NCBI RefSeq assembly: GCF_900142965.1
Contig: NZ_FRCQ01000033.1
Span: forward strand, 1-64,000
Source: Rhizobacter sp. OV335
GTDB taxonomy: Bacteria > Pseudomonadota > Gammaproteobacteria > Burkholderiales > Burkholderiaceae_C
Direction: 5' to 3'
Length of the DNA: 64,000 nt
Part shown: piece after piece, positions 1 through 19,382 of the stretch
Numbering within the stretch: position 1 is the first letter of the stretch
Layout: each line of letters starts with the position of its first letter
The notes under the pieces: generated by a model
Databases searched by the model: none
Seen by the model: the letters and a program-made list of their open reading frames with translations, nothing else
What the model was told of the DNA's origin: nothing
Position numbers and translations under genes: made by a program

Positions 1-1772
1 TAGACGCTGATCGTGATCTGCCCGGGCTCGGCCACCTTGATCGGCAGGCTCCAGTCCGGATGCCACTGCGTGCTGGTCTTCAGCGCCCCTGCCGGCAGCG
101 TGGCGTTCGTCGTGGTCACCGCTGTGCAGTCCTGGCCCTGGTTCAGCCCGGTGACCTGCGCAACTTTCAGATTGCGCGTCAGATCGTTCAGGTAGCAGCT
201 TCGCTTGCCGTTGAAATCATCCCGGCTCGCGATGTTCCCGTTGGCGTCATAGGCCTGACTCCTGCTGCTCTGCAGGCTCCCCGCCCCCGCCGGCTGGGTC
301 TGGCTGCTGAAGTAGTTCTTGCCGTTCAGGCTGAGCGCGCTCCAGTTCGTCACCTGCCCGCTCGGCTCGGTCATCACGATGCCTTGCGGCAGGATCCAGT
401 CGTAGGTCCGCGCCACGTAGAGGCCCTCACGCTGCTCCGTCACCCGGATGCTCGGCGGTACCGCATAGCTCACCGCGTACTTGTCCACCCCGCCCGCATG
501 CTCGGTGCTGATCGCTCTTCCTTCCGTGTCGTAGCCGAAGGTGGCGTAGCGCACGCCGCGCTCGTCGCTGACGCCGGTCAGCGCCCACCCCAGGTCGGCG
601 CGCTCGTACAGCAGGGTCTTAGTCGTCCCGTTGTGCCAGGTGACGCTCGCAAGGTTGTTCTGGGCATCGAAGCCCAGCGTCGTCACCTGCCCGTTCGCAT
701 CGGTGATCGTGCTCATCCGCGTACTGCCCTCGGGCCCGGCGGTGTACGCGAAGTTCAGGCTGTGCCCGCGGTTGTCGCTCGCCTGGGTGAGCAGTCCTGC
801 GCCGTCGTAGCTCAAGTTCACCTGCGTGCCGTCGGTCCAGGCCATCGCCGTCAACCGGCCCGTGCTCGTGTACGTCTCCTGCACGTTGCTCGTGCTGTCG
901 TTGTAGACGTAGCCGCCGCCCGCCAGCGCGATGAATCGATCCGCGTTGCCCGGTTCGGCCGTCGGCGGCGTTGTTGCCGTGCTGGTCATCGTCCTGGAGA
1001 TGCCGTTGCCACGGTCGAACACCGTCGGGTTGGGCAGCGAGGGCGCCGTGCCCGCACTCCTCGTTCCCAGGCTCACCTGTCGGTGCAGGTTGCTGAACCA
1101 CAGCAGGCTGCCCAGCTTGCCGTAGCGCTGCACCTTGCCCGTCGGCCCCGAAGGAGGCGTCGTCCACACCTTCGGAATCTTGTCGCTGCTGTCGAAGGTG
1201 AACTGCAGCGTCGTGTTGCCCATCGCCAGCCCCGTGTCCACCACCTCGCGCTTCACGCCGCGCAGCGGGTAGATCGGGTTGCCCTTGCACACCTCGCACT
1301 CGGGGGGCGGCGGGCTCCATGCATAGGGCAGCAAGATCTCGTGGAGTTCGATCTCGCAGGCCTGCGTCGCCTCATTCCAGGCCAGCCCGTTCGGACACAG
1401 CGAGGCCCGATAGAAGTCCGGGTCTCGCGACGCCAACCACGCCGCGCCACTGCAACTCGTCTCGTAGTGAATGAACTGCCCGCCACTGTCGAACTGCGTC
1501 GCCGCGCGATAGCTGTCCAGCACGACCCTCAGCGCCGGCACATGCTGCACGCCTGCACCGTCCCAGCAGATGCCCGGCGCACCCAGGAACCCGCGCGCGA
1601 ACGCCTCGTAGTTCGCCGGGATCTCCCCGAGCGTCTTCACGCAGCGCGGCAAGCTTCCCGAGTCCAGGGTGTTGCAGTACTGGTACGGCTGCGACTGCGG
1701 GACTTGAGCGAACACCGGCATCACGCACGCACACGCCAGCAGCGCCAGCAGGCGCCACATCTTCGAAGTCAT
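1..1772 (-). CDS. RHS/YD-repeat secreted protein, N-terminal part (runs off left edge)
   Basis: Reading leftward from ATG at 1772, the frame stays open to base 1, giving about 590 residues without a stop. The N-terminus (MTSKMWRLLALLACACVMPVFA) is a clear Sec signal peptide. A Cys-containing domain follows to about residue 150. Then comes CKGNPIYPLRGVKRE, the entry signature seen before the RHS core, and from about residue 230 a series of degenerate YD repeats (LSYDGAGLL, FGYDTEGRA, AYDANGNIASRDD). RHS proteins form a beta-cocoon shell that usually encloses a C-terminal toxin; that part lies outside the window, so toxin type and immunity gene cannot be judged. No secretion genes are visible beside it. 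A long open frame on the opposite strand (60-1889) is a high-GC shadow. Confidence 0.85.
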   Translation of the reverse strand, partial: MTSKMWRLLALLACACVMPVFAQVPQSQPYQYCNTLDSGSLPRCVKTLGEIPANYEAFARGFLGAPGICWDGAGVQHVPALRVVLDSYRAATQFDSGGQFIHYETSCSGAAWLASRDPDFYRASLCPNGLAWNEATQACEIELHEILLPYAWSPPPPECEVCKGNPIYPLRGVKREVVDTGLAMGNTTLQFTFDSSDKIPKVWTTPPSGPTGKVQRYGKLGSLLWFSNLHRQVSLGTRSAGTAPSLPNPTVFDRGNGISRTMTSTATTPPTAEPGNADRFIALAGGGYVYNDSTSNVQETYTSTGRLTAMAWTDGTQVNLSYDGAGLLTQASDNRGHSLNFAYTAGPEGSTRMSTITDANGQVTTLGFDAQNNLASVTWHNGTTKTLLYERADLGWALTGVSDERGVRYATFGYDTEGRAISTEHAGGVDKYAVSYAVPPSIRVTEQREGLYVARTYDWILPQGIVMTEPSGQVTNWSALSLNGKNYFSSQTQPAGAGSLQSSRSQAYDANGNIASRDDFNGKRSCYLNDLTRNLKVAQVTGLNQGQDCTAVTTTNATLPAGALKTSTQWHPDWSLPIKVAEPGQITISV

Positions 1773-2045
1773 TCACGTCCTCCCAAACCGTTCCGAGGGA
1801 GCCGCCCCAACGCAATGAGTCGGGCGGCCTTCAGCGCGACATCGCAGCTTCTACTGCGGGCTGCATCGATGTCGCGGCGGGCGGATTAGACACGAACGAA
1901 ATGACGGAAACGAGTGCTTGTCGGGGTCTGACGACAGTTGTTGACGATCTGCAATTCGTTCACGAAACGTGAGGCTGCGTCATACCGGCGCGAATGATGC
2001 AGATCCATCGCATTTCAGCTGCGCGGCCCATCCGAATACGCGCAG

Positions 2046-2070
2046 GCCGGCAGGCTGGAAGCCTGCCGGC
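2046..2070 (-). terminator. Perfect 10-bp hairpin after the M14 peptidase gene
   Basis: GCCGGCAGGC, a 5-nt loop, then GCCTGCCGGC forms a perfect 10-bp stem. It sits 10 bp past the stop of the peptidase gene (minus strand). No T-run follows on either strand, so it is a weak or factor-assisted terminator at best. The rest of the 308-bp gap 1773-2080 shows only a short TCACG-AAA-CGTGA inverted repeat at 1960-1972. Confidence 0.45.
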
Positions 2071-2080
2071 CCTTCACGAC

Positions 2081-4297
2081 TTACCAGTTGAAGCCCAGCG
2101 TGTACTTCCCGCTGGTCGCGCCGGTGCCGCCGCTGTAGAACTTCACGCGCACATAGCGCGCCGACGCCGCAGTGTCGGTGTTGCTGACGCTCGCCGCATC
2201 GACGACGCCCGACCCCTTCTCGCTCGCGGCCAGCTGGGTGCCCGACGAGTTGTAGATGTAGAGGTCGTAGTCGCTCGACGCGTTGGGCGTCAGCGTGGCG
2301 GTCAGCGTCTTGCCGGCCGGCAGGTTGACGAGGAAGTAGTCACCATCGCTCGACGAGCCGATCGCGCCGTTCCACGTACCCACCGACGCCACTGCATTGG
2401 CGGTGCCGATGTTGTCATTCGGCTCGGTCTCGTTGTTGCCCGGCGTGACCACGCTCGCGATCTTCAGGAACTGCGCCGTCACCGGCCCCCATTGGCCCGA
2501 CGACACCTTGGCGCGCACGAACACCAGGTGCTTGCCCAGCGACAAGCCTGTCGTGGCCAGCGTGCCGCTGAGCGACTCGGTGGTCTGGTTGAAGCTGCCG
2601 TCGGTGGCCGTCAGCGCAATGGCCGTGGCACCGGCCACCCACGGCGGGGTGTCGATGTAGGCCTCGCCGCCGGTCACGTTCAGCACGGGCTCGGTGCCGT
2701 TGCTCTGGTTGAAGCGCGTGTCGGTGGCCGATGCCGTCAGCGACACCGGCGTGCCGGCGAGCACGCCGCCGCCGCTGGCATCGCTGCCGAGCGCCACCGT
2801 GGTCACGTCGGCGCCGGCCGGCGTCTGGTACGGCGCGCGCACCACCTTGGCGGCGTAGATCAGCGCCGGCAGGTTCTTCGGCTTGGTCGTGCTGTTGTAC
2901 GTGGTGCAGCTCTCGAAGAAGCTGGACCCCAGCTCGATCGTGTAGGCCGCCACGCCGAGCTCGCCATAGCTCGGGCCGTCGCTGGTGCCGTCGGTGGCGT
3001 ACAGGCCGATCGACTGCTCCGGCGTGTAGCCGTTGAAGTACGCGAAGCGGCGGCCCAGCGTCTGCAGCGCGGTGGCGTTGGCCGTCGGCGTGCTCGTGGT
3101 GCCCCAGGGCCACAGCACCAGCTGGCTGTAGCTGTGCACGTCGATGTGGATGCCCGAGGTGTCGACCGGCGCGCCGTCACCGGGATTCGGGCCGCGGCGA
3201 TCCGGGAAGATGCTGCGGATGTAGTTCTGCACCGCCTGCGTCTCGGGCTCGGAGCCGGCCGACGCGCCGCGGTAGGTGAGGTCGCACTGGCTGCCGCTGG
3301 AGCCCGAGCCCCCGGTGCTGTTCCAGCCGAACGTGAAGTTGCGGTTCAGGTCGGCACCGCGGGTGTTGCTGGTGGCGCCGCAGTAGGCGGTGTTGGTGTT
3401 CTTGCGCCACGAGAGCCCACCCTCGGCCTTCTTGCGGCCGTCGGGGTTGGTCTGCAGCAGCAGGTGCACCTCGTGGTGGTCGACGATCCAGGTCGCGTCG
3501 GGGTCGGTGCCGTAGCCGTTGAGCAGCCAGCGCGCGAACTCCAGGTTCAGCGGCGCGGTGGTGTATTCGCGGGCGTGAATGGCACTGTTGACGAACAGCT
3601 TGGGCTTGGTGCCGCCGATGGCACTGTTGGTGATCTTCAGCACCCGCATGTCGTAGCCGCCGGAGCCGACGGTCTTCTGCCAGGAGTCGCCGATGTCGAT
3701 CCAGCTCGCGAGCGTCGGGTAGGTGGTGGTGAAGGCCGCCGCGGCGGTGAAGGTTTCTTCGACCGTCTCGTAGCAGGCGAAGCCGGGGATCGACTGGATG
3801 GTGGCGTCGCCGGCAGCGGCGCCGGTGATGCCGGTGCCGTCGGTGGACGCACCAGGTGCCGTGGTGCGGCTCTTGGCATCGGCGGCGGCCTGGATGGCGG
3901 CCAGGAAATCGTCGCGGCGCTGGATGAACTCGGGCGCGTTCTCGATGCGGAAGCCGAAGCTGCGCAGCGCGGCGATGTCGGCCGCATCGAGTTCGAGGAC
4001 GAGGAAGCCTTGCTCGTAGTTGGATTCGAGCAGGTTGGCGTGGAAGGTGACGGCGGCCTTGCGCAGCATGGCTGCGTCGGGGTAGAAGGCCTTGTAGATG
4101 TTGGTGCGCTGCTTTTCCTGCTGTCGCAGCAGGCGCATCTCGGTGGCGGAGTCTTGAGGCGTGGCCACCTGGCCGGGCAGGCGCGCCGGGGTGGTGGGGC
4201 TGGACTGCGTGGACTGCGAGAAAGCTGACGGTACTGCGGAAACTGCAAGGAACAACGCGGCAATTGCCGCCCGCGGTTGCGGACGTACGTTGGTCAT
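2081..4297 (-). CDS. Secreted M14 zinc carboxypeptidase with C-terminal PPC domain
   Basis: 738 residues from ATG at 4297; an AGGGAG leader lies just upstream, and the next Met upstream (4378) has no support. Residues 1-28 are a signal peptide (cleavage after AFSQ likely). The M14 zinc site is intact: HARE (H241, E244), then H388 in GIHIDVHSY, with catalytic E455 in YTIELGSS. Around residues 650-720 is a pre-peptidase C-terminal (PPC) domain: NETEPNDN, GDYFLVNLPAG, SSDYDLYIYNSSG. These domains typically aid secretion or folding and are removed. The likely role is extracellular removal of C-terminal residues during protein scavenging. A single-gene transcript appears likely, ending at the hairpin at 2046-2070. 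Confidence 0.93.
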   Translation of the reverse strand: MTNVRPQPRAAIAALFLAVSAVPSAFSQSTQSSPTTPARLPGQVATPQDSATEMRLLRQQEKQRTNIYKAFYPDAAMLRKAAVTFHANLLESNYEQGFLVLELDAADIAALRSFGFRIENAPEFIQRRDDFLAAIQAAADAKSRTTAPGASTDGTGITGAAAGDATIQSIPGFACYETVEETFTAAAAFTTTYPTLASWIDIGDSWQKTVGSGGYDMRVLKITNSAIGGTKPKLFVNSAIHAREYTTAPLNLEFARWLLNGYGTDPDATWIVDHHEVHLLLQTNPDGRKKAEGGLSWRKNTNTAYCGATSNTRGADLNRNFTFGWNSTGGSGSSGSQCDLTYRGASAGSEPETQAVQNYIRSIFPDRRGPNPGDGAPVDTSGIHIDVHSYSQLVLWPWGTTSTPTANATALQTLGRRFAYFNGYTPEQSIGLYATDGTSDGPSYGELGVAAYTIELGSSFFESCTTYNSTTKPKNLPALIYAAKVVRAPYQTPAGADVTTVALGSDASGGGVLAGTPVSLTASATDTRFNQSNGTEPVLNVTGGEAYIDTPPWVAGATAIALTATDGSFNQTTESLSGTLATTGLSLGKHLVFVRAKVSSGQWGPVTAQFLKIASVVTPGNNETEPNDNIGTANAVASVGTWNGAIGSSSDGDYFLVNLPAGKTLTATLTPNASSDYDLYIYNSSGTQLAASEKGSGVVDAASVSNTDTAASARYVRVKFYSGGTGATSGKYTLGFNW

Positions 4298-4434
4298 GGA
4301 ACGCTCCCTGTGGTTTACGGTACCAGCCCAGCTGCGTGGGCTGGATCGGCGCGCGCTCTCGGCTGGGGATCGACCCATCGGAGCGCCGAATGATTCTGGG
4401 CGACTTCTCCCTGTTCGGCGATGGGAGTAACAAG

Positions 4435-4890
4435 ATGAACAAGGTTATTTATTGGGTATTGGCAATGGCCGCGTGTTGCGGTAATTCGCGTGCGTGCGAA
4501 GGGGATGCCGCGCAATGGGCGCGCGACTTTGCTGCATTGCGAACAGTGCGCGGACACTTTGATGGTGGAAGCTGGGCAGCGGATGTGGACCGCTGGCAAG
4601 GGCGCAAGCATCGGCTGATGCAATGCCTGGCTGCTGGGTTGTCAACAGCGGGGACGCCGGTGGCGCAGGTGGTAGCGCGGATGGGGGAGCCGGATGCGCG
4701 GGTGGCGTGCCCGTCGGCGGCGTGCGACGGGGTGGTTCGGCTGATGGAAACGCGGGGGGAAGGCGAGCGGGTGGTGGCTGAAGGCACCCAGCTGTGGGTC
4801 TACCTGTGGCGCGGGCAGCACGATCGGTTGGTGTTCACCGTGCTCGCCGGCAAGGTATCTGACGTGGCGTGGGCGTATGCGCTGGAGTGA
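4435..4890 (+). CDS. Small exported protein, BamE/SmpA-like motif, function unknown
   Basis: 151 residues. ATG at 4435 has GGGAG eight bases upstream; longer starts at 4264 and 4390 would overlap the promoter of the divergent peptidase. The N-terminus (MNKVIYWVLAMAACCGNSRA) looks like a signal peptide. The middle has TPVAQVVARMGEPDARV, which resembles the 'V...lG.P' strand-turn of BamE/SmpA-type small outer-membrane proteins, followed by beta-like segments ending in LWVYLWRG. I do not assign a function. It is convergent with the GST gene, with 7 bp between stops. Confidence 0.7.
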   Translation: MNKVIYWVLAMAACCGNSRACEGDAAQWARDFAALRTVRGHFDGGSWAADVDRWQGRKHRLMQCLAAGLSTAGTPVAQVVARMGEPDARVACPSAACDGVVRLMETRGEGERVVAEGTQLWVYLWRGQHDRLVFTVLAGKVSDVAWAYALE

Positions 4891-4897
4891 CTCCGCG

Positions 4898-5542
4898 CTA
4901 GGCTGCCTCGACCCGGGCGCAGTACGACTCGAAGGTGCGCTTCCATGCGGAGCGGGCCAGGCATCGGTCGCGGTACGACACGAGCTTCGGATACGGCGCG
5001 ATCAATGACGCGTCCTTGATGCCCGACGAGAGCACGTGCGCCATCAGGATGTCGGCGACGGTGAAGTTGTCTGTCGCGACGAACTCGCGGTTGGCGAACC
5101 AGCGCTCCAGGTTGCCCAGCATCCGGTTCACCCAGCCGACCAGGAACTGGCGGTGCTTGCCGCAGCTGCCATCGGCCGACCAGTCGAGCACCATCAGGCT
5201 GAGCAACGGCATCTCGACCGAGTTCATCGCGGCGAAGCACCAGCGCATCACCTGCGCCTCGCCGGCGCGGTCGGCGGGCATCAGGCGGCCAGACTTCTTG
5301 GCGAGGTGGACGACGATGGCGGCGGATTCGGACAGCAGCAGGCCGTCATCGTCGATCGACGGGATCTGCTCGAACGGGCTGAGCCGGCGATAGGCCTCGG
5401 TGTTCAGGTCGTGCGCGGGGTGGTCCATGCCGGCGATCTCGAACGGGATCTGCATCTCTTCGAGCGCCCACAGCACGCGCAGGTCACGGGTGTGGCCTCG
5501 GGCGCCGGCGTTGACTTTGGAGAAGCCGTAGAGCTTGAGCAT
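4898..5542 (-). CDS. Glutathione S-transferase family protein
   Basis: 214 residues, the normal GST length. The N-terminal thioredoxin fold has the cis-Pro and Glu/Ser motif that bind glutathione (SPFEQIPSIDDDGLLLSESAAI, about residues 55-76). The C-terminal all-alpha domain carries the N-capping box FTVADILMAHVL near residue 160. The enzyme would be a cytosolic dimer conjugating or reducing electrophiles with glutathione; the substrate is unknown. The ATG is preceded by AAGGACCTTCC. No partner gene is apparent. The gap 5543-5829 on its left shows no coding or RNA signal and marks the edge of the accessory island. Confidence 0.9.
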   Translation of the reverse strand: MLKLYGFSKVNAGARGHTRDLRVLWALEEMQIPFEIAGMDHPAHDLNTEAYRRLSPFEQIPSIDDDGLLLSESAAIVVHLAKKSGRLMPADRAGEAQVMRWCFAAMNSVEMPLLSLMVLDWSADGSCGKHRQFLVGWVNRMLGNLERWFANREFVATDNFTVADILMAHVLSSGIKDASLIAPYPKLVSYRDRCLARSAWKRTFESYCARVEAA

Positions 5543-5829
5543 GGAAGGTCCTTTGCTGAGTCCGACGTGCCGTGAAGGGTAGCGGCATCGCGATGTGGGA
5601 TGCGCAAAACCTAGGGATAGTCTGCATAGCTGGTGATTCCGAGGGTTGCTGTCCCGCTAAAGCGGTAGAGACGCCCGGCACCGGGGCCGCGCTGGACCGT
5701 CTGCGCCTTTTGCTGCGACAGCGGACGCACTGCGGGCGCACCCATCCCTCGGCCACCAACTTTCTTCGCGCCATCCCCGAGTTCGGATCTGCGCAGTGGT
5801 CTTAGCAAGCCCTCAGGATCGAACCTTGG

Positions 5830-7524
5830 TTAGCTCTCTCGGATAAATACCTCGATCTCAACGCCGTCGAAGCTGTAGAGCGTCTTGCTGATTTGCTGTG
5901 CCAAAGAGGCGTCTACAGGTGAGGATTCGGTTGGCGCGTGTCGGGCAGCGACTATCCGGAGGACGTCGGCGCTGGACAGGCAGCCATGTACGGTGCGGGC
6001 GAATTCAGGCCATGAAACCCAGGCACTGCGCCTGTCGGCGCTCGCTTCGCCCGAAAAGCGAGCGGCGTGACGAGTCATCACGATCAGGACAGGTGGTCCG
6101 GACGACTTTGCCGATAGGTTCCTGATCCCCAACGCGGCCATTACCGTGCCTGAATCCCGGTTTGCAACCCATCCATGGACCCGGTCAACCCAGGTCCCGG
6201 CGCCCAACATGTTGCGCCGCCGGCTATCCCGTTCACGCAGGGACCGGGAAGACACGTCGTACCACTTGATCTGGACCAGCGCGACCGTGCCGTGGAGGTG
6301 GTCCACGATCGCGGCGTCGATGTCGGTGAGCACGCTGCCGTCTTGCCTCTTCAGCTTGAAACCTGATGGGGCGACCTCGTAGCGGGGCCCAGGAAATAGT
6401 GCCGCGAGTTCCTTGCGAAGCCGGTCCTCACGTGCGTCTACGGCCGTGTCCCAGTCCCTACGGTAGTGCCCGCGAAGGTGCCGGACCATGCCCACGAAAG
6501 GGTTCAGGAGCGCCGACATCGAGGGCACCAATGCAAAGTCCGGGCCGAGGTCCACGTAGAACGGGAAGGGGGTGTCGTAGTGTGACAACCACCCTGGGTT
6601 GGACTCCCCATCGAGCGTCATGGACCGCGTCGCCATGTCGGCCCACACAGGCTCGTACCCATTGGCGTGCCATCCGTGCGCGATATCACCGCGGGTGCGG
6701 TACAGCGTGAGCAGATTACGAAGGTCAAGATGCCTGTGCGTCGAGACGAGCCGTGTGCAGAACTCGAGGTGGCTTAGCGCCTGCGCTGCGACAAGCCGGC
6801 AGGCATCCTTCCATTGCCGGAATGTCCGCCCCCCGACCATCGCGTCGTCAGCGAGTGCCGTGGCTTCGGGCCACCAAGCCTCAAGCTGTCTGATGCGCTG
6901 TAGGCCGCGCTCCATCAGCGCTTCGTCGAAGGAGTAGCGGATAAACCATCCCCCGAGATCCGTGCTGGACCGCTCATCCAGTCGGCGCCTGATGCGCTTC
7001 AGTTGAGCGGCGCTCAGCGGTGCCAGCGCGCCCGTTGTCTTTAGCTGCTGCGCGATTAGCCAAAGTTCAGCGTGGCGATCAGCTGCCTCGGCGCGACCAT
7101 GTTCAATTTCTATCGTTAACCGGCGCTCACCTTCGAACTTGGTCCTGCTCAATCCGTAGCGTTCCAGACTCGCGAGGCGATGGAGCGAGTGCAGGGTGCC
7201 ACACCGCCAGAGGTAGTTGTCCATGTACTCCGTAAGCCGGTCGCTCGAAGGGCCCCACGGCATCGGACCGCTGCAAGAACCGACCTTGGCTAGCAATGGC
7301 TGCAGGGCCGGCGCGGCACCCATCAACATCTGGTGACGGGCGACGTCATGCTTCACCAGGTCCAATCGGTTCGGAGCCATCCGGAATGCGAACGCACACA
7401 TGTCAAGCGTCCGGAATATTTCCGTGATCGCCTGGCGCTCGCAGCCTGCAACCGCCGTAGCGGCCGCTGCCTGGTTCTCGGCAATCAGTCGCCCGAGCAA
7501 TTCGACCGCGCGTCCACCTTCCAC
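5830..7524 (-). CDS. Island protein with PD-(D/E)XK-like nuclease region and an internal Rx4H motif
   Basis: 564 residues from GTG at 7524, which has GGGAGG seven bases upstream. The start lies 26 bp after the stop of the receiver-HEPN gene, so the two are co-transcribed. The first 270 residues are helical and unrecognised. Near residue 280 is TRGDIAHG, an Rx4H arrangement like HEPN RNases. From about residue 360 the chain turns alpha/beta: RLRKELAALFPGPRYEV, then TDIDAAIVD (about 400-408) and ALVQIKW (about 415-421), which fits the D...(D/E/Q)xK core of restriction-like nucleases. The tail VEIEVFIRES ends the protein. Codon use is less GC3-biased than the surroundings, consistent with transfer. 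The role is inferred to be nucleic-acid cleavage in defence; no known family was recognised. Confidence 0.7.
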   Translation of the reverse strand: MEGGRAVELLGRLIAENQAAAATAVAGCERQAITEIFRTLDMCAFAFRMAPNRLDLVKHDVARHQMLMGAAPALQPLLAKVGSCSGPMPWGPSSDRLTEYMDNYLWRCGTLHSLHRLASLERYGLSRTKFEGERRLTIEIEHGRAEAADRHAELWLIAQQLKTTGALAPLSAAQLKRIRRRLDERSSTDLGGWFIRYSFDEALMERGLQRIRQLEAWWPEATALADDAMVGGRTFRQWKDACRLVAAQALSHLEFCTRLVSTHRHLDLRNLLTLYRTRGDIAHGWHANGYEPVWADMATRSMTLDGESNPGWLSHYDTPFPFYVDLGPDFALVPSMSALLNPFVGMVRHLRGHYRRDWDTAVDAREDRLRKELAALFPGPRYEVAPSGFKLKRQDGSVLTDIDAAIVDHLHGTVALVQIKWYDVSSRSLRERDSRRRNMLGAGTWVDRVHGWVANRDSGTVMAALGIRNLSAKSSGPPVLIVMTRHAARFSGEASADRRSAWVSWPEFARTVHGCLSSADVLRIVAARHAPTESSPVDASLAQQISKTLYSFDGVEIEVFIRES

Positions 7525-7550
7525 GCACTTACCTCCCGGATGGGCCGTCG

Positions 7551-8465
7551 CTAGGTCTTCCCGAGCAACGTGAGGATTTCGTTCAGGGCAGCCCGCTGCG
7601 CGCGCAGTTGCTGCCTGAGCAGAAGTGTGCGTGCTGCGTCGAAGGCCTCCTCGACGTTGTCCTTGATTTCGAAAACTGGGAATCCGTCCACGTGTCTCTT
7701 GGGCTTTTGGTGCGCGAGTGCGTTCCGCCATTGCAGCAGATCCTTGATGCTGCCAATGCCCTCCTTGTACTGCTTCAGACCCTCGTGGTCCTTGCATAGG
7801 CTGACCGCCATATCCACCCGGCGGCTGCTATCAAATGACCGCGCCTTCACGAGTGTCTCGAAGTCCACAGGGTCAAGTTTGACGATGGCATCGATGAGCG
7901 CCTCGATCTCGCCGAAGTGGGCATGATCTCCCTCTTTGACGAGGACCTTGAGGCTCTTGACAACCGGACGCATCTTTTCCAGCAAGCGCTTGCACAACTC
8001 AACTTGCTTGCCGGCTTCAAAGCTGGCGTGCACTGCGCGAATCACGTCTGTCACTAAGTGGTCGAGGTCCGCTACGCCTGCCATAACGATGCCACGCATG
8101 TTCTCGACGTCCACCACCTTACGCACCGTCAGGTTGAAGACGTCTTTGATCTTCCTCAACAACTGTTCCGTAGGACGGCCGGAATAAAAGACCCCCTCCA
8201 AACCGCGATCGGCCGCTTCTTGGCGAAGCTTCGGCACGCCGCTGGCCGAATAAAAGATGACCTCTGTGAGGCAGTTCTGGTCGCGGATCTGCCGGATGAC
8301 GTCGCTTCCATGCAGGTCACCGTTATCACCGTCGCCATCCGCGATGTTGTAGTCGATGATCAAGAGGTCGAATTGCGATCCATCGACTGCGGCCCTGATT
8401 TCCTCAGGTGACATTCGATACTCCAACTTGAGGTCAAAGCCTTGCGACTCGACGTACTCCTTCAA
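7551..8465 (-). CDS. Receiver-like domain fused to HEPN-like domain, 5' end lost
   Basis: The frame is open from 8498, but the only plausible initiator inside it is TTG at 8465 (304 residues), without a Shine-Dalgarno. The protein starts in the middle of a receiver fold: the first beta strand (IAAFDSF, 8478-8498) precedes the TTG and has no start codon. Seen: phosphoacceptor-like D38 in FDLLIIDYN, FYSASG as the Thr/Ser strand, and GVFYSGRP where the conserved Lys is replaced by Arg. A helical region follows, then WRNALAHQ (R247 to H252), an Rx4H motif typical of HEPN ribonucleases. So it looks like a signal-gated RNase subunit. The upstream TAG at 8499 directly abuts the truncated vsr, so this gene was probably shortened by a deletion and may be inactive. 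Confidence 0.7.
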   Translation of the reverse strand: MKEYVESQGFDLKLEYRMSPEEIRAAVDGSQFDLLIIDYNIADGDGDNGDLHGSDVIRQIRDQNCLTEVIFYSASGVPKLRQEAADRGLEGVFYSGRPTEQLLRKIKDVFNLTVRKVVDVENMRGIVMAGVADLDHLVTDVIRAVHASFEAGKQVELCKRLLEKMRPVVKSLKVLVKEGDHAHFGEIEALIDAIVKLDPVDFETLVKARSFDSSRRVDMAVSLCKDHEGLKQYKEGIGSIKDLLQWRNALAHQKPKRHVDGFPVFEIKDNVEEAFDAARTLLLRQQLRAQRAALNEILTLLGKT

Positions 8466-8484
8466 GTCGTCGGTTTCGAAGCTA

Positions 8485-8715
8485 TCAAATGCGGCAATCT
8501 AAGTGGCCATGCCAGAAGCATCCGTGTACGAACACCACGGCCCGATACTTTGGGAACACCAAATCAGGCCGGCCAGGCAAGGCGGGAGCATGGAGCCGGT
8601 AACGGAGTCCCCGAGCGTGCAGCAAGCTCCGGAGGCGCAACTCTGGCTTGGTGTCCTTTCCGCGGATACGGGACATCCGCTCGGAGCGCTCGGCCGGGGT
8701 CAGGAAGTCAGTCAT
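8485..8715 (-). pseudogene. vsr: Very short patch repair endonuclease, 3'-truncated
   Basis: 76 residues matching the first half of Vsr (usual length about 140-150). The N-terminal PAERSERMSRIRGKDTKPE is the family hallmark. RPDLVF supplies the first catalytic Asp and FVHGCFWHGH the two His; then the frame becomes LDCRI and stops. The lost half includes the second metal-ligand Asp and the Zn/DNA-binding tail, so the enzyme should be dead. Vsr nicks T:G mismatches made by deamination of 5-methylcytosine and is normally next to a cytosine methyltransferase; none is present here. The break coincides with the 5' break of the receiver gene on the same strand. Confidence 0.85.
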
Positions 8716-8972
8716 GGCACCTGCTACTGCTGGTCACTTTGCGCGGCCCCATTTCCTTGCCAGCATCCGCCAGAAACCTTGAGTGCAGGTCAACTGGTTG
8801 GAGGCAACGCCCTGTTTTCAGGGTATCCGAGATGCCGTATTGGCTGCGCTAAAGCCCCTTGTATGAGTTCAATCTCGAGCCATGCGCCCACACTCGGCAA
8901 CGTCGTCGGGCGTCTCGACGTCCAGTCAAACTTGCATCATCATTCAGTCCTCGAAAGCCGAAGGAGAAGCGC

Positions 8973-9158
8973 ATGGAGATTGACCTCTCACTCGATGAAG
9001 TTGAGATCCTAAGAGAGTGCCTGAACTACTCAAAATTGAACCTGAGAGAGGGGGCCGCTCCCGATGACATCAAGCGTCGGAAATTAGAACAGTTGGATGC
9101 TTTGCAGAAGAAGTTCAGCACTGTCATCCACCAGCCTCCTTTAAAAAGGGATTCGTAG
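8973..9158 (+). CDS. Small helical protein, unknown
   Basis: 61 residues. The ATG at 8973 has a strong AAGGAG seven bases upstream, which is the main reason to believe it. The product is charged and predicted helical (IDLSLDEVEILRECLNYSK, then DDIKRRKLEQLDALQKKF), with no membrane segment. It stands alone on the plus strand inside the island, between vsr and the HNH gene. It could be a small regulator or antitoxin-like protein; nothing in the sequence decides this. The stretch 8716-8972 upstream holds no gene I can support. Confidence 0.6.
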   Translation: MEIDLSLDEVEILRECLNYSKLNLREGAAPDDIKRRKLEQLDALQKKFSTVIHQPPLKRDS

Positions 9159-9190
9159 CCGCGCGCAGGCCATGCCTCAATGAGGCTCAA

Positions 9191-9994
9191 TCATTTCCGA
9201 CGAGCAGTGCGAAGCGCCGAAACCTCCTCGACGCTCAACCAGGGCCTGCTCGCATGCACGACGCGGTGGCAGTTTGCGCACAATAGAGCCAGATCGTGAA
9301 CGCTAGTTCGATGTCCCTCGACCAACGTATGGAGCGGCTTCGTATGGTGCACGTCGATGATGCCGCTGGCCGACGGCCCATACGCATCGATGAAGTCGAA
9401 TCCGCACGCAGCGCAAGCCAGTCGCCCGGACTGCTTGAGGGCCATCGCCTTCACCTGCTCGACGAGCTTTCGGCTGCGTTCCCGTTGCCGATAAACGCGC
9501 GTGAGAATCCGCCCTTCTTCGGCATCCTGAATTCCGGGCTCGTCCTCCGCCAAATAGGCTGAGGCGTCGTCTCGACCTGAGATGCAACCTCGGATGGCCT
9601 GACTGACTTCGGTCAGCCGCTGCGGGTCGTTGGCAAAGAGCCGCCAAACAACTCCTTCGTCCCTGTTCCCTCGTCGCAGCCCGACCCTACCCTGCGCCGT
9701 ATAGGTTGGATCGAACCGCCGGAAGTTCATCATCTTCATGTAGACGCCGGCGGGATTCCTGAACGTGCGCTTGTCGTCGAGCTGCACGGCTCGACCGAGT
9801 TCGTTCAAGATTGACGACAGCTCCTTGACCGCGGCACTGTTCTTAGAAGGAGGAGAGACGCGGTGTCGCAGGTACAAGTCCAACGCCAGGATCAACTCGT
9901 CCCTCGTCCACGCGGGATTGCGTGGAGCCCCCGGAGTTCCAATTGCCTTCGGCGCCTTTGCCATGTCCATCCCAGTGCCAATGTCGACGCGCAT
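9191..9994 (-). CDS. HNH endonuclease, McrA-like
   Basis: 267 residues. The C-terminal third is a zinc-ribbon HNH nuclease: CAACGFDF (first Cys pair), then IDVHHTKPL, then DLALLCANCHRVVH (second Cys pair and catalytic His). This arrangement is that of the McrA/HNH restriction endonucleases, many of which cut modified DNA. The N-terminal part (ELILALDLYLRHR, FRNPAGVYMKMMNFRRFDP) is the region commonly seen ahead of such domains and may read DNA. The start is uncertain: ATG at 9994 and at 9970 are both possible and neither has a good leader. Location in the island next to vsr remains suggests a restriction role, without a visible methylase. Confidence 0.85.
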   Translation of the reverse strand: MRVDIGTGMDMAKAPKAIGTPGAPRNPAWTRDELILALDLYLRHRVSPPSKNSAAVKELSSILNELGRAVQLDDKRTFRNPAGVYMKMMNFRRFDPTYTAQGRVGLRRGNRDEGVVWRLFANDPQRLTEVSQAIRGCISGRDDASAYLAEDEPGIQDAEEGRILTRVYRQRERSRKLVEQVKAMALKQSGRLACAACGFDFIDAYGPSASGIIDVHHTKPLHTLVEGHRTSVHDLALLCANCHRVVHASRPWLSVEEVSALRTARRK

Positions 9995-10059
9995 CGATCG
10001 TGCGCGATTCGAAGTCGCATTGTCTCGAACGAACGAGGATGGAGTCCATCACATTCGCG

Positions 10060-10395
10060 TCACAGCTTCGCGCCGACGCGCACCCACTCCCCCACCCGCT
10101 CCGCCTCTTCCGACAGCAACCGCAACGCCGTGACGCTCAAGCGCCTCAGCGAATCATGCCGAGACCGATCGATCAGAGGCGTGTGATCGTCCATGCGCAG
10201 CCAATCGTCGAACTCCGCGATCTCCAGCAGCGCTCGAACGCCATCGGCGACATCGATCGTCAGCCCGACTAGTCGATTCAAGTGACGCGCCTCGATGACC
10301 CGAGCGTCCGTCGACTCATCGGTCCACCGAAATTCCTCGAACTGCGAGGGAGAGGACGAGGGAGACTCCTCGTCGTCAGCGGCATTGATGCTCAT
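10060..10395 (-). CDS. Hypothetical acidic helical protein
   Basis: 111 residues. Codon third positions are mostly G/C, so I take it as real. The N-terminus is acidic and Ser-rich; the rest is helical (ARHLNRLVGLTIDVADGVRALLEIAEFDDWLRM and LRRLSVTALRLLSEEAERV, quoted in pieces). Family not recognised. It lies 65 bp upstream of the HNH gene on the same strand and may share its transcript. Confidence 0.55.
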   Translation of the reverse strand: MSINAADDEESPSSSPSQFEEFRWTDESTDARVIEARHLNRLVGLTIDVADGVRALLEIAEFDDWLRMDDHTPLIDRSRHDSLRRLSVTALRLLSEEAERVGEWVRVGAKL

Positions 10396-10430
10396 GCGTA
10401 TTGGCTCCAGAAGTTGAATGCGCGCGCGTG

Positions 10431-10451
10431 AAAAAGCCGCCAGTGGGCGGC
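10431..10451 (-). terminator. Rho-independent terminator, minus-strand orientation
   Basis: On the minus strand: GCCGCC, 4-nt loop, GGCGGC, then TTTTT (bases 10435-10431). The only minus-strand genes near it start downstream of it, and the gene to its right (10545) runs the other way. It therefore terminates nothing visible and may be left from a gene lost when the island arrived. Confidence 0.6.
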
Positions 10452-10544
10452 CTCACGCGGGTATCTTCCGAGACGCCAATCTCGACCCAGGCTCTCGCCT
10501 GGGCGCGGCCAATGTAGCACGCACCCTGCCGCAGAATCGGCCTC

Positions 10545-11750
10545 ATGCGCCATGTGCCACGACTCCTGCTGACTGCCCTGGCGACCGCGCTGCTGCTCGC
10601 GCTCTTGCTCGTCTTTGCAGCCTGGTACCTCACCCTCCCCACCACCCCCGACCCCTTCTACTCCGCCACCTACCGCATCCCCTTCCGCCCCGGCACGCTG
10701 CTGCGCCAGGAGCCCTTCACCCGCGGCGTGCCCGAAGGCGCCGTCGCGTGGCGCATCCTCCACGCCACCACGCGTGACGACGGCTCGCCCGCCCTCGCCA
10801 GCGCCATCGTGATGGTCGCGCGCAACGCGCCCGCCGGCCCGCGCCCGGTCGTCGCGTGGGCGCACGGCAGCACCGGCATCGTGCGCGGCTGCGCGCCCTC
10901 GCTGCTGGGCGATCCGTTCGCCCACGTGCCCGCGCTGCAGCCGCTGCTCGACCAGGGCTGGGTCTGGGTCGCCACCGACTACGTGGGCCTGGGCGCCGCC
11001 GGCATCCACCCCTACCTGGTCGGCACCGGCCAGGCCCGCTCCGCGCTCGATGCGGTGCGGGCCGCGCGGCAGATGGTGGGCGTGGCGCTGTCCGATCGCA
11101 CCGTCGTTTGGGGCCATTCGCAAGGCGGCAACGCGGCCCTGTGGGCCGGCATGCTCGCGCCCCGCTACGCGCCCGACGTGCCGTTGGCTGGCATCGCCGC
11201 CCTCGCGCCGGGGAGCGACCTGCCGGCGCTGGTGGCCGCCGTGCAGCACACGCCGGTCGGCCGCATCACCTCGGCGTACCTGCTGCAGGCCTACAGCGAC
11301 ACGTATGGCGACGTGAAGTTCGATGACTACGCGCGCGGCTGGCCGGCGCTGATGGCGCGCGACATCGCGTCACGCTGCCTGGCGGGTGGCCGGGCCTGGT
11401 TCACTGCGGTCGAGGCGGCGGCTGTCGGCGGCAGCATCTTCTCCGCACCGCCTACGAGCGGGCCGTTGGGCCAGCGGCTCGCGGAGAACACGCCTGTCGG
11501 GCCGTGGACGCAGCCGGTGTTGATCGCGCAAGGGCTGGACGACGACCTGGTGCCGCCCGCGGTGCAATCGCGCTTCGTCGCAACACGCTGCCAGGCAGGG
11601 CGGGCGATCGACCACCGGCGCTACGCCGGGCGCGACCACGCCTCGCTGGTCGCGGCAGATTCACCGCTGACGAAAGACCTGCTCATGTGGACGCAATCCC
11701 GCTTCAGCCACCAAGCGCCGCACCCCGGCTGCCGAACCACCGATCAGTGA
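10545..11750 (+). CDS. Secretory-lipase-type alpha/beta hydrolase
   Basis: 401 residues. Residues 1-30 are a membrane anchor or signal (LLLTALATALLLALLLVFAAWYL). The fold matches secretory lipases: an early HGSTGIVRGCAPS segment (oxyanion region), a lid region with YVGLG, and the nucleophile elbow VWGHSQGGNAAL. The acid comes from GLDDDLVPP and the His from GRDHASLV, completing a Ser-Asp-His triad. It probably hydrolyses lipid or short-chain esters outside the inner membrane. The last 7 bp overlap the convergent AI-2E-family gene. It may be the first native gene right of the island. Confidence 0.88.
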   Translation: MRHVPRLLLTALATALLLALLLVFAAWYLTLPTTPDPFYSATYRIPFRPGTLLRQEPFTRGVPEGAVAWRILHATTRDDGSPALASAIVMVARNAPAGPRPVVAWAHGSTGIVRGCAPSLLGDPFAHVPALQPLLDQGWVWVATDYVGLGAAGIHPYLVGTGQARSALDAVRAARQMVGVALSDRTVVWGHSQGGNAALWAGMLAPRYAPDVPLAGIAALAPGSDLPALVAAVQHTPVGRITSAYLLQAYSDTYGDVKFDDYARGWPALMARDIASRCLAGGRAWFTAVEAAAVGGSIFSAPPTSGPLGQRLAENTPVGPWTQPVLIAQGLDDDLVPPAVQSRFVATRCQAGRAIDHRRYAGRDHASLVAADSPLTKDLLMWTQSRFSHQAPHPGCRTTDQ

Positions 11751-12817
11751 GCCGGCAGCCGCCTGCGCCACACCTCCAGCAACGCCACCCCCATCGCCAG
11801 CGCCAGCGGCCCGATCACCAGCCCCGTCGCGCCGAACGCCACCAGCCCGCCGACGATCGCGATGAAGGCCGGCAGCGTGTGCAGCCGCAGCTGCTTGCCG
11901 ATCAGCACCGGGTACAGCAGGTTGTCGACCAGCGCGACGACGATCGATCCCCACAGCGTGAGGATCAGCGCCTTCTCCCAGCTGCCCTCCAGCAGCAGCA
12001 GCCCCGCCGCCGGGATCCACACGATGGCCGCGCCCAGCACCGGCAGGATGGACAGCACGAACATCACCAGCCCCCACAGCATCGGCGCCGGCAGCCCCAG
12101 CCACCAGAACATCAACCCGCCCAGCAGCCCCTGCAGCGCCGCGATCAACACCGTGCCCAGCACGCTGGCGCGCACCACCTCGGCCACGCGCTTGAAGATG
12201 CGGCTGGTCTCGCGCGCCGTCAGCGGCAGGACCGATCGCAGCCAGCGCAGCGCCAGCTCGCGGTCGCGCAGCAGGTAGAACAGCGCGAAGAAGGTCACCA
12301 GCAGCTGCACGCTGCCCCACATCGAGCCGGTCAGGAAGCCCTGCAGCCGCGGCGCGAGCTGCTTGGCCATCTCGTCGCTCGACGGCATCTGCTTCGTCGC
12401 CCACGCCACGGCGCGCGCCAGCGTCGGCCTGTCGCGCACCAGGTCGTCGACGCGCTGGCGCACCTCGTCGGACCGCAGGTGCTCCCAGCCCTCGCGCGCC
12501 TTTTCGACCATCACCGGGGCGATTGCCGCTGCCAGGACGAGCAGCACGGCCGCGAGCAGCGCCGTCGTCAGGCCGGCGCTCAGGTTCGGGCGGCGCACGC
12601 GGCGTGCAATGCGCCGGTGCAAGCCGTTCGCGACGATGGCCAGCGCCACCGCCCACACCAGCGCCGACACGAAGGGCTCGGTCATGCGCCAGCACAGCAC
12701 CAGCACGATCAGCGTGATGACGGCGAGCGCGAACACCGAGACGCGGTTGCGGGTCAGGCCGGCTCGAGGCGGCGCATCAGCGGGGTCTTCGGGGGCATCG
12801 GCATCAAGGCTGTCCAT
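11744..12817 (-). CDS. AI-2E-family (PerM/YdiK-type) membrane permease
   Basis: 357 residues with about seven to eight membrane segments. The family pattern is visible: a TM pair near residues 25-65, a TM at 85-105, a large soluble insert (about 110-170), then a helical half with SVLGTVLIAALQGLLGG, ILPVLGAAIVWIPA and LVDNLLYPVLIG, the last two being the most conserved motifs. Members export small molecules, autoinducer-2 or ions; the substrate cannot be read from sequence. The start codon at 12817 lies inside a small upstream gene (12754-12975), so translation may be coupled. Confidence 0.9.
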   Translation of the reverse strand: MDSLDADAPEDPADAPPRAGLTRNRVSVFALAVITLIVLVLCWRMTEPFVSALVWAVALAIVANGLHRRIARRVRRPNLSAGLTTALLAAVLLVLAAAIAPVMVEKAREGWEHLRSDEVRQRVDDLVRDRPTLARAVAWATKQMPSSDEMAKQLAPRLQGFLTGSMWGSVQLLVTFFALFYLLRDRELALRWLRSVLPLTARETSRIFKRVAEVVRASVLGTVLIAALQGLLGGLMFWWLGLPAPMLWGLVMFVLSILPVLGAAIVWIPAAGLLLLEGSWEKALILTLWGSIVVALVDNLLYPVLIGKQLRLHTLPAFIAIVGGLVAFGATGLVIGPLALAMGVALLEVWRRRLPAH

Positions 12818-12975
12818 TCAGGGGCGCGGGCAATCGGTGTTCCTGATGCGGGCTGGACCTGCCGCTCGCTCCGGAGTGGATGCATCCACATCAGTTCGCC
12901 GAGGTTGACTGAATTGATCTCCAGATCGCGGCGCAGGACTTCGTAGAGCTGTACGTTTTGCTCGAATGACGTCAT
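12754..12975 (-). CDS. Small protein overlapping the AI-2E-family gene start
   Basis: 73 residues from ATG at 12975, with GGAG seven bases upstream. The first 35 residues (MTSFEQNVQLYEVLRRDLE, then NSVNLGELMWMHPL) have normal codon use; the last third overlaps the first 64 bp of the permease gene in another frame. No family recognised. A promoter-like AT-rich inverted repeat lies 29-57 bp upstream. It could be a leader peptide for the permease, or a spurious frame. Confidence 0.42.
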   Translation of the reverse strand: MTSFEQNVQLYEVLRRDLEINSVNLGELMWMHPLRSERQVQPASGTPIARAPEWTALMPMPPKTPLMRRLEPA

Positions 12976-13003
12976 CGATGTCTCCGGTGATCTCGTCGGG
13001 CTT

Positions 13004-13032
13004 GTTAAAAGAGTGGGGTGGTTTTTTTTAAC
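13004..13032. promoter_or_regulatory. AT-rich inverted repeat GTTAAAA...TTTTAAC
   Basis: A 7-bp perfect inverted repeat with a 15-bp spacer, strikingly AT-rich in this GC-rich region, 29 bp upstream of the small gene starting at 12975. It could be an operator/promoter for the permease transcript, or a terminator arm for plus-strand reading (T8 at 13022-13029). Confidence 0.35.
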
Positions 13033-13104
13033 ACCGTGCGGGCATGGAGCGGGCCTTCGATACCTCAGGCTGAACGGGTCTTTGCAGTCGTGCAGTTGAA
13101 GTAG

Positions 13105-13362
13105 GCGACGAACCCTTCGACGGACGGGCCCTCGACCAGCTCGGTCCCTGCTCTCAAGAAACAGCACACTTCCGTTCGCCCTGAGCAGCGACCGAGCTTG
13201 TCGATGGCGCGTCTGTCGAAGGGTTGCGTCCGAAGCGGGCCAGGCCTTCGACAAGCTCAGTCCGAACGGTTTCTTTGCAACCGCCGGGTCCCTTCAAGGA
13301 CCTGATGTGCTCAGGGCGAACGGGGGCTTAGGGCAAACGGGGACTCAGCGCAACGGGGCTCA
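13105..13362. repeat. Block of degenerate dispersed repeats (TTCGACAAGCTCAG-type)
   Basis: This gap (about 385 bp from 12976 to 13359) has no gene of its own and is filled with copies and fragments of one repeat family. Seen: AACCCTTCGACGGACGGG at 13111, CGTTCGCCCTGAGCAG near 13153, GCCTTCGACAAGCTCAG near 13243, CTCAGGGCGAACGGG near 13309, followed by decayed CAAACGGGG/CAACGGGG units. The same units occur at 18296-18432 and 24476-24655. The right end runs into the MpaB-type gene and supplies its stop codon. Confidence 0.8.
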
Positions 13363-14061
13363 GTTCGAACGTGGGTCGGTGCGCGAACGGGGCGCGGTGC
13401 GGGAGCGGACGAGCGCCCTCACCCAACCACTCGCCTCCCCCAACCCCAGCACCTCCCGCACCCCCGGCTCCATCGTCGCCAGCATCCCCTGTCGGAACGC
13501 CCAGCGCGTGCCGAACGGCACCGTCAGCTTCACCACGTCGCGCAGGCACAGGCGCGCCAGGCGCTCGCCTTCGGGCGTGCGGGCCATGCAGCGCGCTTCA
13601 TACTCGCGCTGCAGTTGCTGCCACTGCGGCAGCGCCTCGGGCAGCTCGCTTATCCCCATCTCACGCCCCACGCGCTGCCAGAAGGCCAGCAGCAACGCGG
13701 TCTCGTGCGCCTCCAGCTTCACCCGCGCATGCCGTGCGTTCCAGCGCAGTGGCTCCAGGAAGAACGTGGCCAGCACGTAGCGGTAGTCGCTCGCATCCGC
13801 CGGCACATGGCGGTGCACATCTCGCAACCGCTGCAGCGCCACCCGCCCCGCCTCGCTGTCGAAGCCGTGGCAGATCAGCTCGCGCAGCGTCTGCCGCGTG
13901 CGCGCCAGCCGGGCCTGCGTCTGCGACACCAGCTGCGCATGCCCGTACAGCGTCGTCACCAGGTGCGCGATGCCCATCATGCGGATCAGCGCCAGGTAGG
14001 TGCCGATGCGAAACGTCATCCGGTGCCGGCCGTAGTACAGCGCCTCGATCTGCGTCGTCAT
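13360..14061 (-). CDS. MpaB-type (DUF2236) oxygenase-like protein
   Basis: 233 residues. Family marks: YGRHRMTFRIGTYLALIRMMG near the start, CHGFDSEAGRVALQRL, then DYRYVLATFFLEPLRW, in the order and spacing of the MpaB/latex-clearing-protein-like haem oxygenases. Members oxidise terpenoid or polyisoprenoid chains, but most bacterial ones are uncharacterised. ATG at 14061 overlaps the Lrp stop by 4 bp (ATGA), so the two are translationally coupled. The last about 20 residues are Arg/Ser-rich and encoded by decayed dispersed repeat; the native C-terminus may have been replaced. Confidence 0.8.
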   Translation of the reverse strand: MTTQIEALYYGRHRMTFRIGTYLALIRMMGIAHLVTTLYGHAQLVSQTQARLARTRQTLRELICHGFDSEAGRVALQRLRDVHRHVPADASDYRYVLATFFLEPLRWNARHARVKLEAHETALLLAFWQRVGREMGISELPEALPQWQQLQREYEARCMARTPEGERLARLCLRDVVKLTVPFGTRWAFRQGMLATMEPGVREVLGLGEASGWVRALVRSRTAPRSRTDPRSN

Positions 14062-14534
14062 GCCCCGGCCTCCCCCGGCTCGGCCAGCGCGATGCGCGTC
14101 TCGAACTTCGAGCAGTTCATCGCGAAGGTGCTCTTGAAATTCCGCACGTTGTTGTTCGACGAAAACACCTCGCGCGTGAACGCGTGGTACCGCTCCATCG
14201 ACGCCGAGTTCACGATCAGCAAGAAGTCGAACTCGCCCGACACCTCGTAGCAGGCCATCACGTCGTCCTGCGCCGCCATCTTCTTCTCGAAGTTGCGCAA
14301 CAGCGCATCGTTCTGCTTGTCGAGCTCGACCGAGACGAACACCGTCAGCGGCCGCCCCACGCGCTGCCGGTCGACGATCGCCACCTGCTTCATCAGCACG
14401 CCCGAGGCCTTCAGTTGCGCAATGCGGCGCTGGCAGGTGGCCGGCGAGCTGTGCACCCGCTCGGCCAGCGTGCGCATCGGCAGCGAGGCATCGTGTTGCA
14501 GCAGGTTCAGGATCTGGGTGTCGAGTCGGTCCAT
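14058..14534 (-). CDS. Lrp/AsnC family transcriptional regulator
   Basis: 158 residues, standard length. ATG at 14534 (MDRLDTQILNLLQHDASLP) begins the winged HTH, whose recognition helix is SSPATCQRRIAQL. Residues about 65-150 form the RAM ligand-binding domain (FVSVELDKQ, CYEVSGEFDFLLIV). Such proteins bind amino acids or related compounds and act on neighbouring amino-acid genes. It is divergent from the amidohydrolase (124 bp apart) and coupled to the MpaB-type gene, so both sides are candidate targets. Confidence 0.92.
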   Translation of the reverse strand: MDRLDTQILNLLQHDASLPMRTLAERVHSSPATCQRRIAQLKASGVLMKQVAIVDRQRVGRPLTVFVSVELDKQNDALLRNFEKKMAAQDDVMACYEVSGEFDFLLIVNSASMERYHAFTREVFSSNNNVRNFKSTFAMNCSKFETRIALAEPGEAGA

Positions 14535-14657
14535 TCGCCCATTCTCGGCCAGCAAAACGGGACAAACGCATCACGCGACGCCCGATCGCGATGATTCCGC
14601 TCACGCGCTGCTGCCGACAATGCAGCATCCCAGCGTCCGTCCTGCCCGGAGCCCGCG

Positions 14658-18272: not shown

Positions 18273-18295
18273 CAAAGCACCCCGTAGCAAATCAC

Positions 18296-18432
18296 CCCGT
18301 TCGCCCTGAGCCTGTCGAAGGGCCTGCGCGCTTGGCACCACGGCTTCGACAAGCTCAGCCTGAACGGGTGAGGCACAACCCTTCGACGGACGGGCCCTCG
18401 ACAAGCTCGGTCCCTGCTCAGGGCGAACGGGG
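18296..18432. repeat. Dispersed palindromic repeats between convergent genes
   Basis: CGTTCGCCCTGAGCCTGTCGAAGGGC at the left faces GGCTTCGACAAGCTCAGCCTGAACGGG, forming an inverted pair. A 56-bp unit beginning AACCCTTCGACGGACGGGCC runs from 18377 to 18432 and is repeated almost exactly at 24601-24655. The unit overlaps the last codons and stop of the dehydrogenase gene. It lies between two convergent genes, where it may act as a bidirectional terminator. Confidence 0.85.
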
Positions 18433-19329: not shown

Positions 19330-19382
19330 TTGGTGGTCTCCTGGTGTCTTGTTGATGGGACTGTTGGCAGAATCGATCGCTC

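Follow-up and report, generated by a model that had tools for sequence, protein, structure and literature searches.

A probably decayed, restriction-like defence island in Rhizobacter sp. OV335 and the family of receiver proteins with a HEPN-type motif to which its receiver belongs

A low-GC (guanine plus cytosine) island near the start of contig NZ_FRCQ01000033.1 of Rhizobacter sp. OV335, of which positions 1 to 64,000 were analysed (hereafter the window), carries two adjacent genes: one for a receiver-like protein (protein 1) and one for a putative nuclease (protein 2). An initial annotation made from the sequence had proposed that they form a working defence pair. We find instead that the front half of a vsr gene is fused to the receiver gene, that the start codon and the front of the receiver are missing, that partner genes are absent near the locus, and that the nuclease gene is intact with its catalytic residues. 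The locus is best read, with a probability of roughly 0.7, as a decayed, horizontally acquired, restriction-like defence island of the kind that combines a GHKL kinase, a receiver, a C5 DNA methyltransferase (Dcm) and Vsr, in this case also with a PD-(D/E)XK nuclease.

A receiver frame fused to half of a vsr gene

The frame of protein 1 begins directly after an in-frame TAG (8499-8501) and has no start codon; its earliest in-frame ATG, GTG or TTG codons are TTG 8465, TTG 8426 and ATG 8414. The vsr fragment ahead of it stops after GCFWHGHLDCRI, a point past which five longer Vsr proteins continue, and amounts to the first half of a Vsr protein only. The similarity to Vsr proteins and the similarity to receiver relatives break at a common junction (Table 1), so the two genes appear to have been joined by loss of DNA. 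About 22 N-terminal receiver residues of the relatives, including an LW-x-(D/E)-D motif that every one of the 11 carries, are missing from the window copy. With this front gone, the window receiver is therefore probably non-working; judged by its sequence, it could neither fold nor be switched. Both frames described in the initial annotation are present, as are the receiver Asp, RNALAH, RGDIAHG, TDIDAAIVD...QIKW and the foreign composition that it noted, but the first frame lacks a start codon and is preceded by half of vsr.

The partners expected from the relatives described below are missing as well. A search for remnants of the kinase or the methyltransferase in 4501-11000 found none (best E-values 0.35 and 0.06), and positions 1-20000 of the window hold no GHKL kinase-like gene or C5 methyltransferase. 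Elsewhere in the genome, the search for the partner kinase returned only kinase-core similarity of 28-36%, and that for a full C5 methyltransferase returned none, PF00145 finding only a 37-position piece on contig C25 (13423-13554, locus L040).

Table 1. Features of the island, with positions in the window
Feature	Position	Strand	Basis
Receiver-HEPN-type frame, 5'-truncated, 315 codons, without start codon	8498..7551	-	Frame and family comparison
Codon of the putative phospho-acceptor Asp, D49	8352..8354	-	Invariant in 11/11 aligned members
RNALAH (R-N-x-L-x-H motif)	7710..7727	-	12/12 members
vsr gene, 5' half, 76 codons, stop 8487-8485	8715..8488	-	Pfam Vsr 115 bits, 1e-33, residues 2-71
vsr/receiver junction	8468..8494	.	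Vsr similarity up to 8494, receiver similarity from 8468 (tblastn of relatives on window 4501-11000)
Nuclease gene, intact, 564 residues, GTG start, GGGAGG in front	7524..5830	-	Relatives' profile (window included) covers it end to end; AlphaFold mean pLDDT (predicted local distance difference test) 75
Putative PD-(D/E)XK core, E366 ... T400-D401-x-D403 ... Q418-x-K420-W421	6432..6262	-	13/13 sequences; arrangement in the model
Low-GC island with the broken locus	5615..10400	.	Left edge fixed (~5614), right edge by composition only
HNH nuclease, 267 residues	9191..9994	-	Pfam HNH 27.6 bits (cut-off 21.4); PADLOC HNH/type II and mREase_IV models
99-codon frame between vsr fragment and HNH gene	8859..9158	+	No family match

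Relatives of the receiver protein and their neighbours

Searches with the receiver family retrieved 11 distinct relatives with a complete receiver protein, of which six come from genomes of the same phylum and five from contigs classed as viral (L015, L016, L029 (=L017), L030 (=L018), L027 (=L020), L031 (=L024), L032, L033, L034, L035 and L043 (=L042)). The genome samples, which may overlap, gave two relatives besides the window among 299 genomes of the family (E<=1e-8), two among 398 of the phylum (1e-8), one among 369 of the class (1e-10) and one among 349 of the order (1e-15); five further relatives came from the viral contigs. Protein 1 had no match in 72,556 plasmid records, nor in the viral contigs when used there as a single query. 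Scans of proteins 1 and 2 returned nothing near the cut-off from NCBIfam and no match from PADLOC.

In the alignment of the window copy with ten relatives (L043 is a later find), D49, R108, R258, N259, L261 and H263 are among the invariant columns. R108 lies close to where a receiver usually has its Lys, as positioned by alignment and not by structure, which agrees with the earlier description of a receiver that has the Asp and lacks this Lys. The RNALAH segment picked out in the initial annotation proved to be a family feature: R-N-x-L-x-H, the HEPN-type Rx4H motif, is present in all 12 members, L043 included, with its Arg 52-59 residues from the C-terminus. The chance expectation of Rx4H in a protein of the make-up of protein 1 is 0.56, but its conservation in all 12 members goes beyond chance. 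When the family was compared by hhalign with nine HEPN_RiboL-PSP or MAE_28990 proteins, the score was 19.7 against a maximum of 14.95 in 100 column shuffles, but at a probability of 2% and over only 25 columns around the motif. A sequence search of the PDB returned no HEPN protein; the N-terminal part matches mainly CheY-like receivers. HEPN proteins form a superfamily of ribonucleases (RNases), as outlined in Anantharaman 2013 (PMC3710099). The family resembles HEPN RNases of the RiboL-PSP type in carrying R-N-x-L-x-H in the last fifth of protein 1 and in a weak profile match, and differs in that the profile-profile match is local to the motif and the Pfam score lies under the cut-off (PF18735, 20.5 bits on the window copy against 28.4). 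The motif itself is sure, whereas the HEPN fold of the C-terminal part is putative, though likely.

A GHKL kinase-like gene directly adjoins the receiver gene in every one of the 11 relatives by profile scan, being split over two frames in L032 and cut by the contig end in L029; the phosphorelay theme of the initial annotation is in line with this arrangement. A C5 methyltransferase lies within the locus in 10 of the 11 and, for L027, ~12 kb off on the same contig. These counts come from few loci, and some of the profiles were derived from them: the kinase profile was built partly from L015, L016, L024, L027 and L030 and the methyltransferase profile from L015, L016, L024 and L030, which match by construction, yet L029, L032, L033, L034, L035 and L043, outside both profiles, match too. 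The DNA fetched per relative spans 5-38 kb, that of L029, L032 and L035 being short or ending near the gene. Both GHKL domains keep their ATP-site residues in the nine kinases compared (partial L029 and split L032 left out), and a candidate phospho-His (H573 in L015) is present in all nine.

Two of these loci show further features. On the contig of L031 (=L024), filed as viral, a complete methyltransferase-kinase-receiver-HEPN operon (4199-8921) is followed by a 146-codon frame that is present after the operon in L030 too. In L043 the receiver-HEPN/kinase/methyltransferase block (10296-17056) adjoins frames that by eye resemble TniQ and TnsC/B/A, and it is perhaps cargo of a Tn7-like element.

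The layout of kinase, receiver, Dcm and Vsr is already known. According to Bellieny-Rabelo 2021 (PMC8011034), Response_reg_2/HEF_HK pairs adjoin C5 methyltransferases, often with Vsr, and the Response_reg_2 proteins have a conserved Lys and no other known domain. The relatives of protein 1 share the kinase/receiver/methyltransferase part with them, including a soluble kinase-like protein with HATPase_c_3 and HATPase_c domains, and differ in having an Arg near the Lys place and the C-terminal R-N-x-L-x-H region; the window copy differs further in being without kinase and methyltransferase. PF19192 (Response_reg_2) has no match in the window at E<=10 and matches two of 11 family members at E<=0.1 (best 22.0 bits against 27), and PF19191 matches none of the kinases scanned (L015, L016 and the L018 part). 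In Iyer 2008 (PMC2292703), MORC/paraMORC restriction-like systems combine a GHKL ATPase, Dcm, Vsr and novel endonucleases. The likeness to our loci lies in the GHKL ATPase, Dcm, Vsr and an unnamed restriction-fold nuclease, a set that L008 and L007 fit; a difference is that the word 'receiver' is absent from that text. None of the titles and abstracts listed from the open-licence literature names a receiver-HEPN protein together with a GHKL kinase and a methyltransferase. Because Response_reg_2 proteins are given no other domain and a kept Lys in PMC8011034, a receiver with a HEPN-type output appears to be an undescribed variant of the known layout.

The nuclease and the surrounding island

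Judged by its invariant residues and its AlphaFold model, protein 2 is a PD-(D/E)XK-type nuclease. The TDIDAAIVD...QIKW stretch that had been called a nuclease-like core belongs to a region conserved beyond chance: E366, D401, D403, Q418 and K420 are the same in all 13 full-length sequences compared (the window copy plus 12 relatives), and the model has a restriction-endonuclease-like arrangement. The catalytic roles of the five residues are assigned from the known pattern. The top match of the model is Upx (PDB 9wuf), a single-gene defence system. Residues 1-522 of protein 2 fold-align to 761-1272 of 9wuf, with 393 residues matched at 8% identity, so that only half of Upx is covered; Upx was not listed by a PDB sequence search with the profile. 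The other PD-(D/E)XK defence nucleases set beside protein 2 are SduA/Shedu, HamA, Can2, Card1 and NucC; no PADLOC profile matches protein 2 at E<=10. Pfam gave nothing relevant on seven members of the family, and protein 2 as a single query had no match in the viral contigs. The initial annotation had also seen a HEPN motif in the RGDIAHG of protein 2; we rejected this candidate, as the protein holds four Rx4H matches against 2.1 expected and none of 13 relatives has one at that place.

The relatives of the nuclease live in varied settings. Vsr is encoded in eight of the ten nuclease loci (L002-L011) and a C5 methyltransferase in six, the latter being truncated at the locus boundary in L003 and L004. 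A double-GHKL kinase occurs in two (L002 and L007), both with another receiver-like protein; a receiver of the protein 1 type occurs in none. Behind these counts stand several loci that had contributed to the profiles; the sequence of L006 opens 0.4 kb ahead of the gene, the contig of L005 is short, and there is close kinship among L003-L005 and between L006 and L009. In L007 a single block encodes Vsr, a methyltransferase, a kinase (HATPase_c_3 plus HATPase_c), a receiver-like protein of 447 residues (called by eye; Pfam does not match it) and the nuclease; L002 holds a kinase, a Response_reg_2 protein (63 bits), a methyltransferase, Vsr and the nuclease, split by an insertion sequence. Among the other loci, L008 has a HATPase_c_3 protein, L009 DrmB, L011 DrmA and DrmB, L004 a DndH-like protein and L010 an HNH type IV-like protein. 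From neighbours as varied as Vsr, Dcm, GHKL, Drm and DndH-like proteins it follows that the nuclease is a module common to several Vsr/Dcm-type systems.

Some of these loci merit separate description. The element that interrupts the nuclease gene of Rhizobium sp. TAL182 (L002, 11072-13721) is of the IS66 type. L003 (275-9341) and L004 (360-9360) encode a methyltransferase, a P-loop-like protein, a 503-residue protein, a DndH-like protein of 1817-1820 residues, Vsr and the nuclease, together perhaps amounting to a Dnd-like restriction set linked with a C5 methyltransferase; of the P-loop-like, 503-residue and DndH-like proteins of L004, only the last matches a PADLOC model. Distant nuclease relatives on viral contigs adjoin a repressor-like frame, as seen by eye, in L038 (4133-5932) and L039 (6984-8783), and these are possibly stand-alone prophage defences.

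The suspicion of a foreign island was borne out by composition: GC is 54-64% over ~5.5-10.5 kb, whereas the flanking stretches measured (4.5-5.75 and 10.25-11.75 kb) have 66-77%. Between 2080 and 5614 the window has a 92% match in a congener (G391), which diverges beyond that point and whose contig ends 156 bases further; because the match departs there, the left edge is placed at ~5614. No empty site was obtained from a congener, the neighbouring gene being found at E<=1e-40 in two of 11 genus genomes (its own included) and the contig of the other genome stopping at the edge, and 4500-11500 contains no direct repeats of length 14 or more. The HNH nuclease that the island encodes upstream of the vsr fragment is a possible former member of the system. 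Its HNH part resembles the HNH protein adjoining the nuclease in L010 (30% over 70 residues, E 4e-5).

Origin of the locus and alternative explanations

The ancestor of the locus most likely comprised a C5 DNA methyltransferase, Vsr, a double-GHKL (MORC-like plus histidine kinase-like) sensor, a receiver-HEPN-type response protein and the PD-(D/E)XK nuclease. A deletion or recombination would then have joined the front half of vsr to the receiver gene slightly inside its 5' end, probably removing a kinase gene that lay between them; the methyltransferase would have been lost too. In more complete relatives, self DNA may be marked by methylation, the kinase may sense unmarked or altered DNA and phosphorylate the receiver Asp, and the phosphorylated receiver would free the HEPN RNase and stop the cell, a second line of defence behind DNA cleavage. 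At most the nuclease would still act in the window copy. The function given here to every relative is putative and drawn from sequence and context. That the relatives constitute a distinct restriction-linked defence, in which a cytoplasmic double-GHKL kinase reads the state of DNA (Dcm providing the self mark) and hands phosphate on to a receiver that acts through a HEPN RNase and not a promoter, is a tentative proposal to which we give somewhat less than even odds.

Several observations weigh against a decayed island of this composition. No relative has all the proposed parts together with this receiver, the ancestor being a composite of L007 and L002 (kinase, another receiver, nuclease, Dcm and Vsr) on one side and the receiver-HEPN operons on the other. 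Vsr is beside none of the 11 receiver-HEPN relatives in the fetched DNA. In L007, which has a different type of receiver, the residue in the candidate phospho-His column is something other than His. Pfam HEPN scores fall below the cut-off in the window copy and match only three of 12 members (E<=10). Finally, a rare ATT start or a late TTG or ATG start could still yield some protein from the truncated frame.

The nuclease might owe nothing to the other genes. Protein 2 is full-length, has all its catalytic residues by pattern and is preceded by a good ribosome-binding site, the top match of its model is half of Upx over those 393 residues, and Dcm, Vsr and kinase are all missing from the 6-17 kb fetched for its distant viral relatives L036-L039; it could thus be a self-contained, Upx-like defence nuclease with protein 1 a dead neighbour. 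Vsr in most nuclease loci speaks for a decayed island instead, and we consider the self-contained nuclease rather unlikely, although it deserves to be kept in mind. The late starts in protein 1 suggest another possibility, namely that TTG 8465 or ATG 8414 yields a short protein with a HEPN part that is active independently of the receiver switch, e.g. as a toxin checked by something else. The C-terminal part with R-N-x-L-x-H is indeed intact across 287 codons from ATG 8414, but an ungated RNase should be poisonous and scans of neighbouring frames gave no antitoxin family, which leaves this explanation improbable.

As for the phosphate-gated RNase/nuclease pair of the initial annotation, the two frames are adjacent on the same strand with 26 bases between them, and both the HEPN-type motif and the nuclease core are intact. 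Such a pair would have to work with a receiver that has no start codon, has lost its front and has vsr fused before it, in a genome with neither a partner kinase nor a full C5 methyltransferase; nor were the genes found together elsewhere, the nuclease accompanying none of the 11 receiver relatives in the DNA fetched and the receiver occurring in none of the ten nuclease loci. There is very little chance that the pair works as it stands. Equally hard to credit is that the vsr/receiver fusion is a fault of assembly and the living locus whole: the genome is a draft of 72 contigs, but the junction lies well inside an 87 kb contig, and the partners would also need to be absent from an assembly rated 100% complete.

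Taken together, the decayed-island reading leaves the window copy a relic, yet one that exposes a family tying a kinase/receiver pair to a DNA methyltransferase and an RNase-type motif. An unnamed PD-(D/E)XK family whose fold is perhaps Upx-like likewise emerges as a nuclease module shared by Vsr/Dcm, Drm, DndH-like and kinase/receiver systems. If the proposal for the complete relatives is true, a two-component phosphorelay would end directly in abortive infection, the Arg that replaces the receiver Lys would mark an altered switch, and orphan GHKL-kinase/receiver pairs near C5 methyltransferases would gain a testable output.

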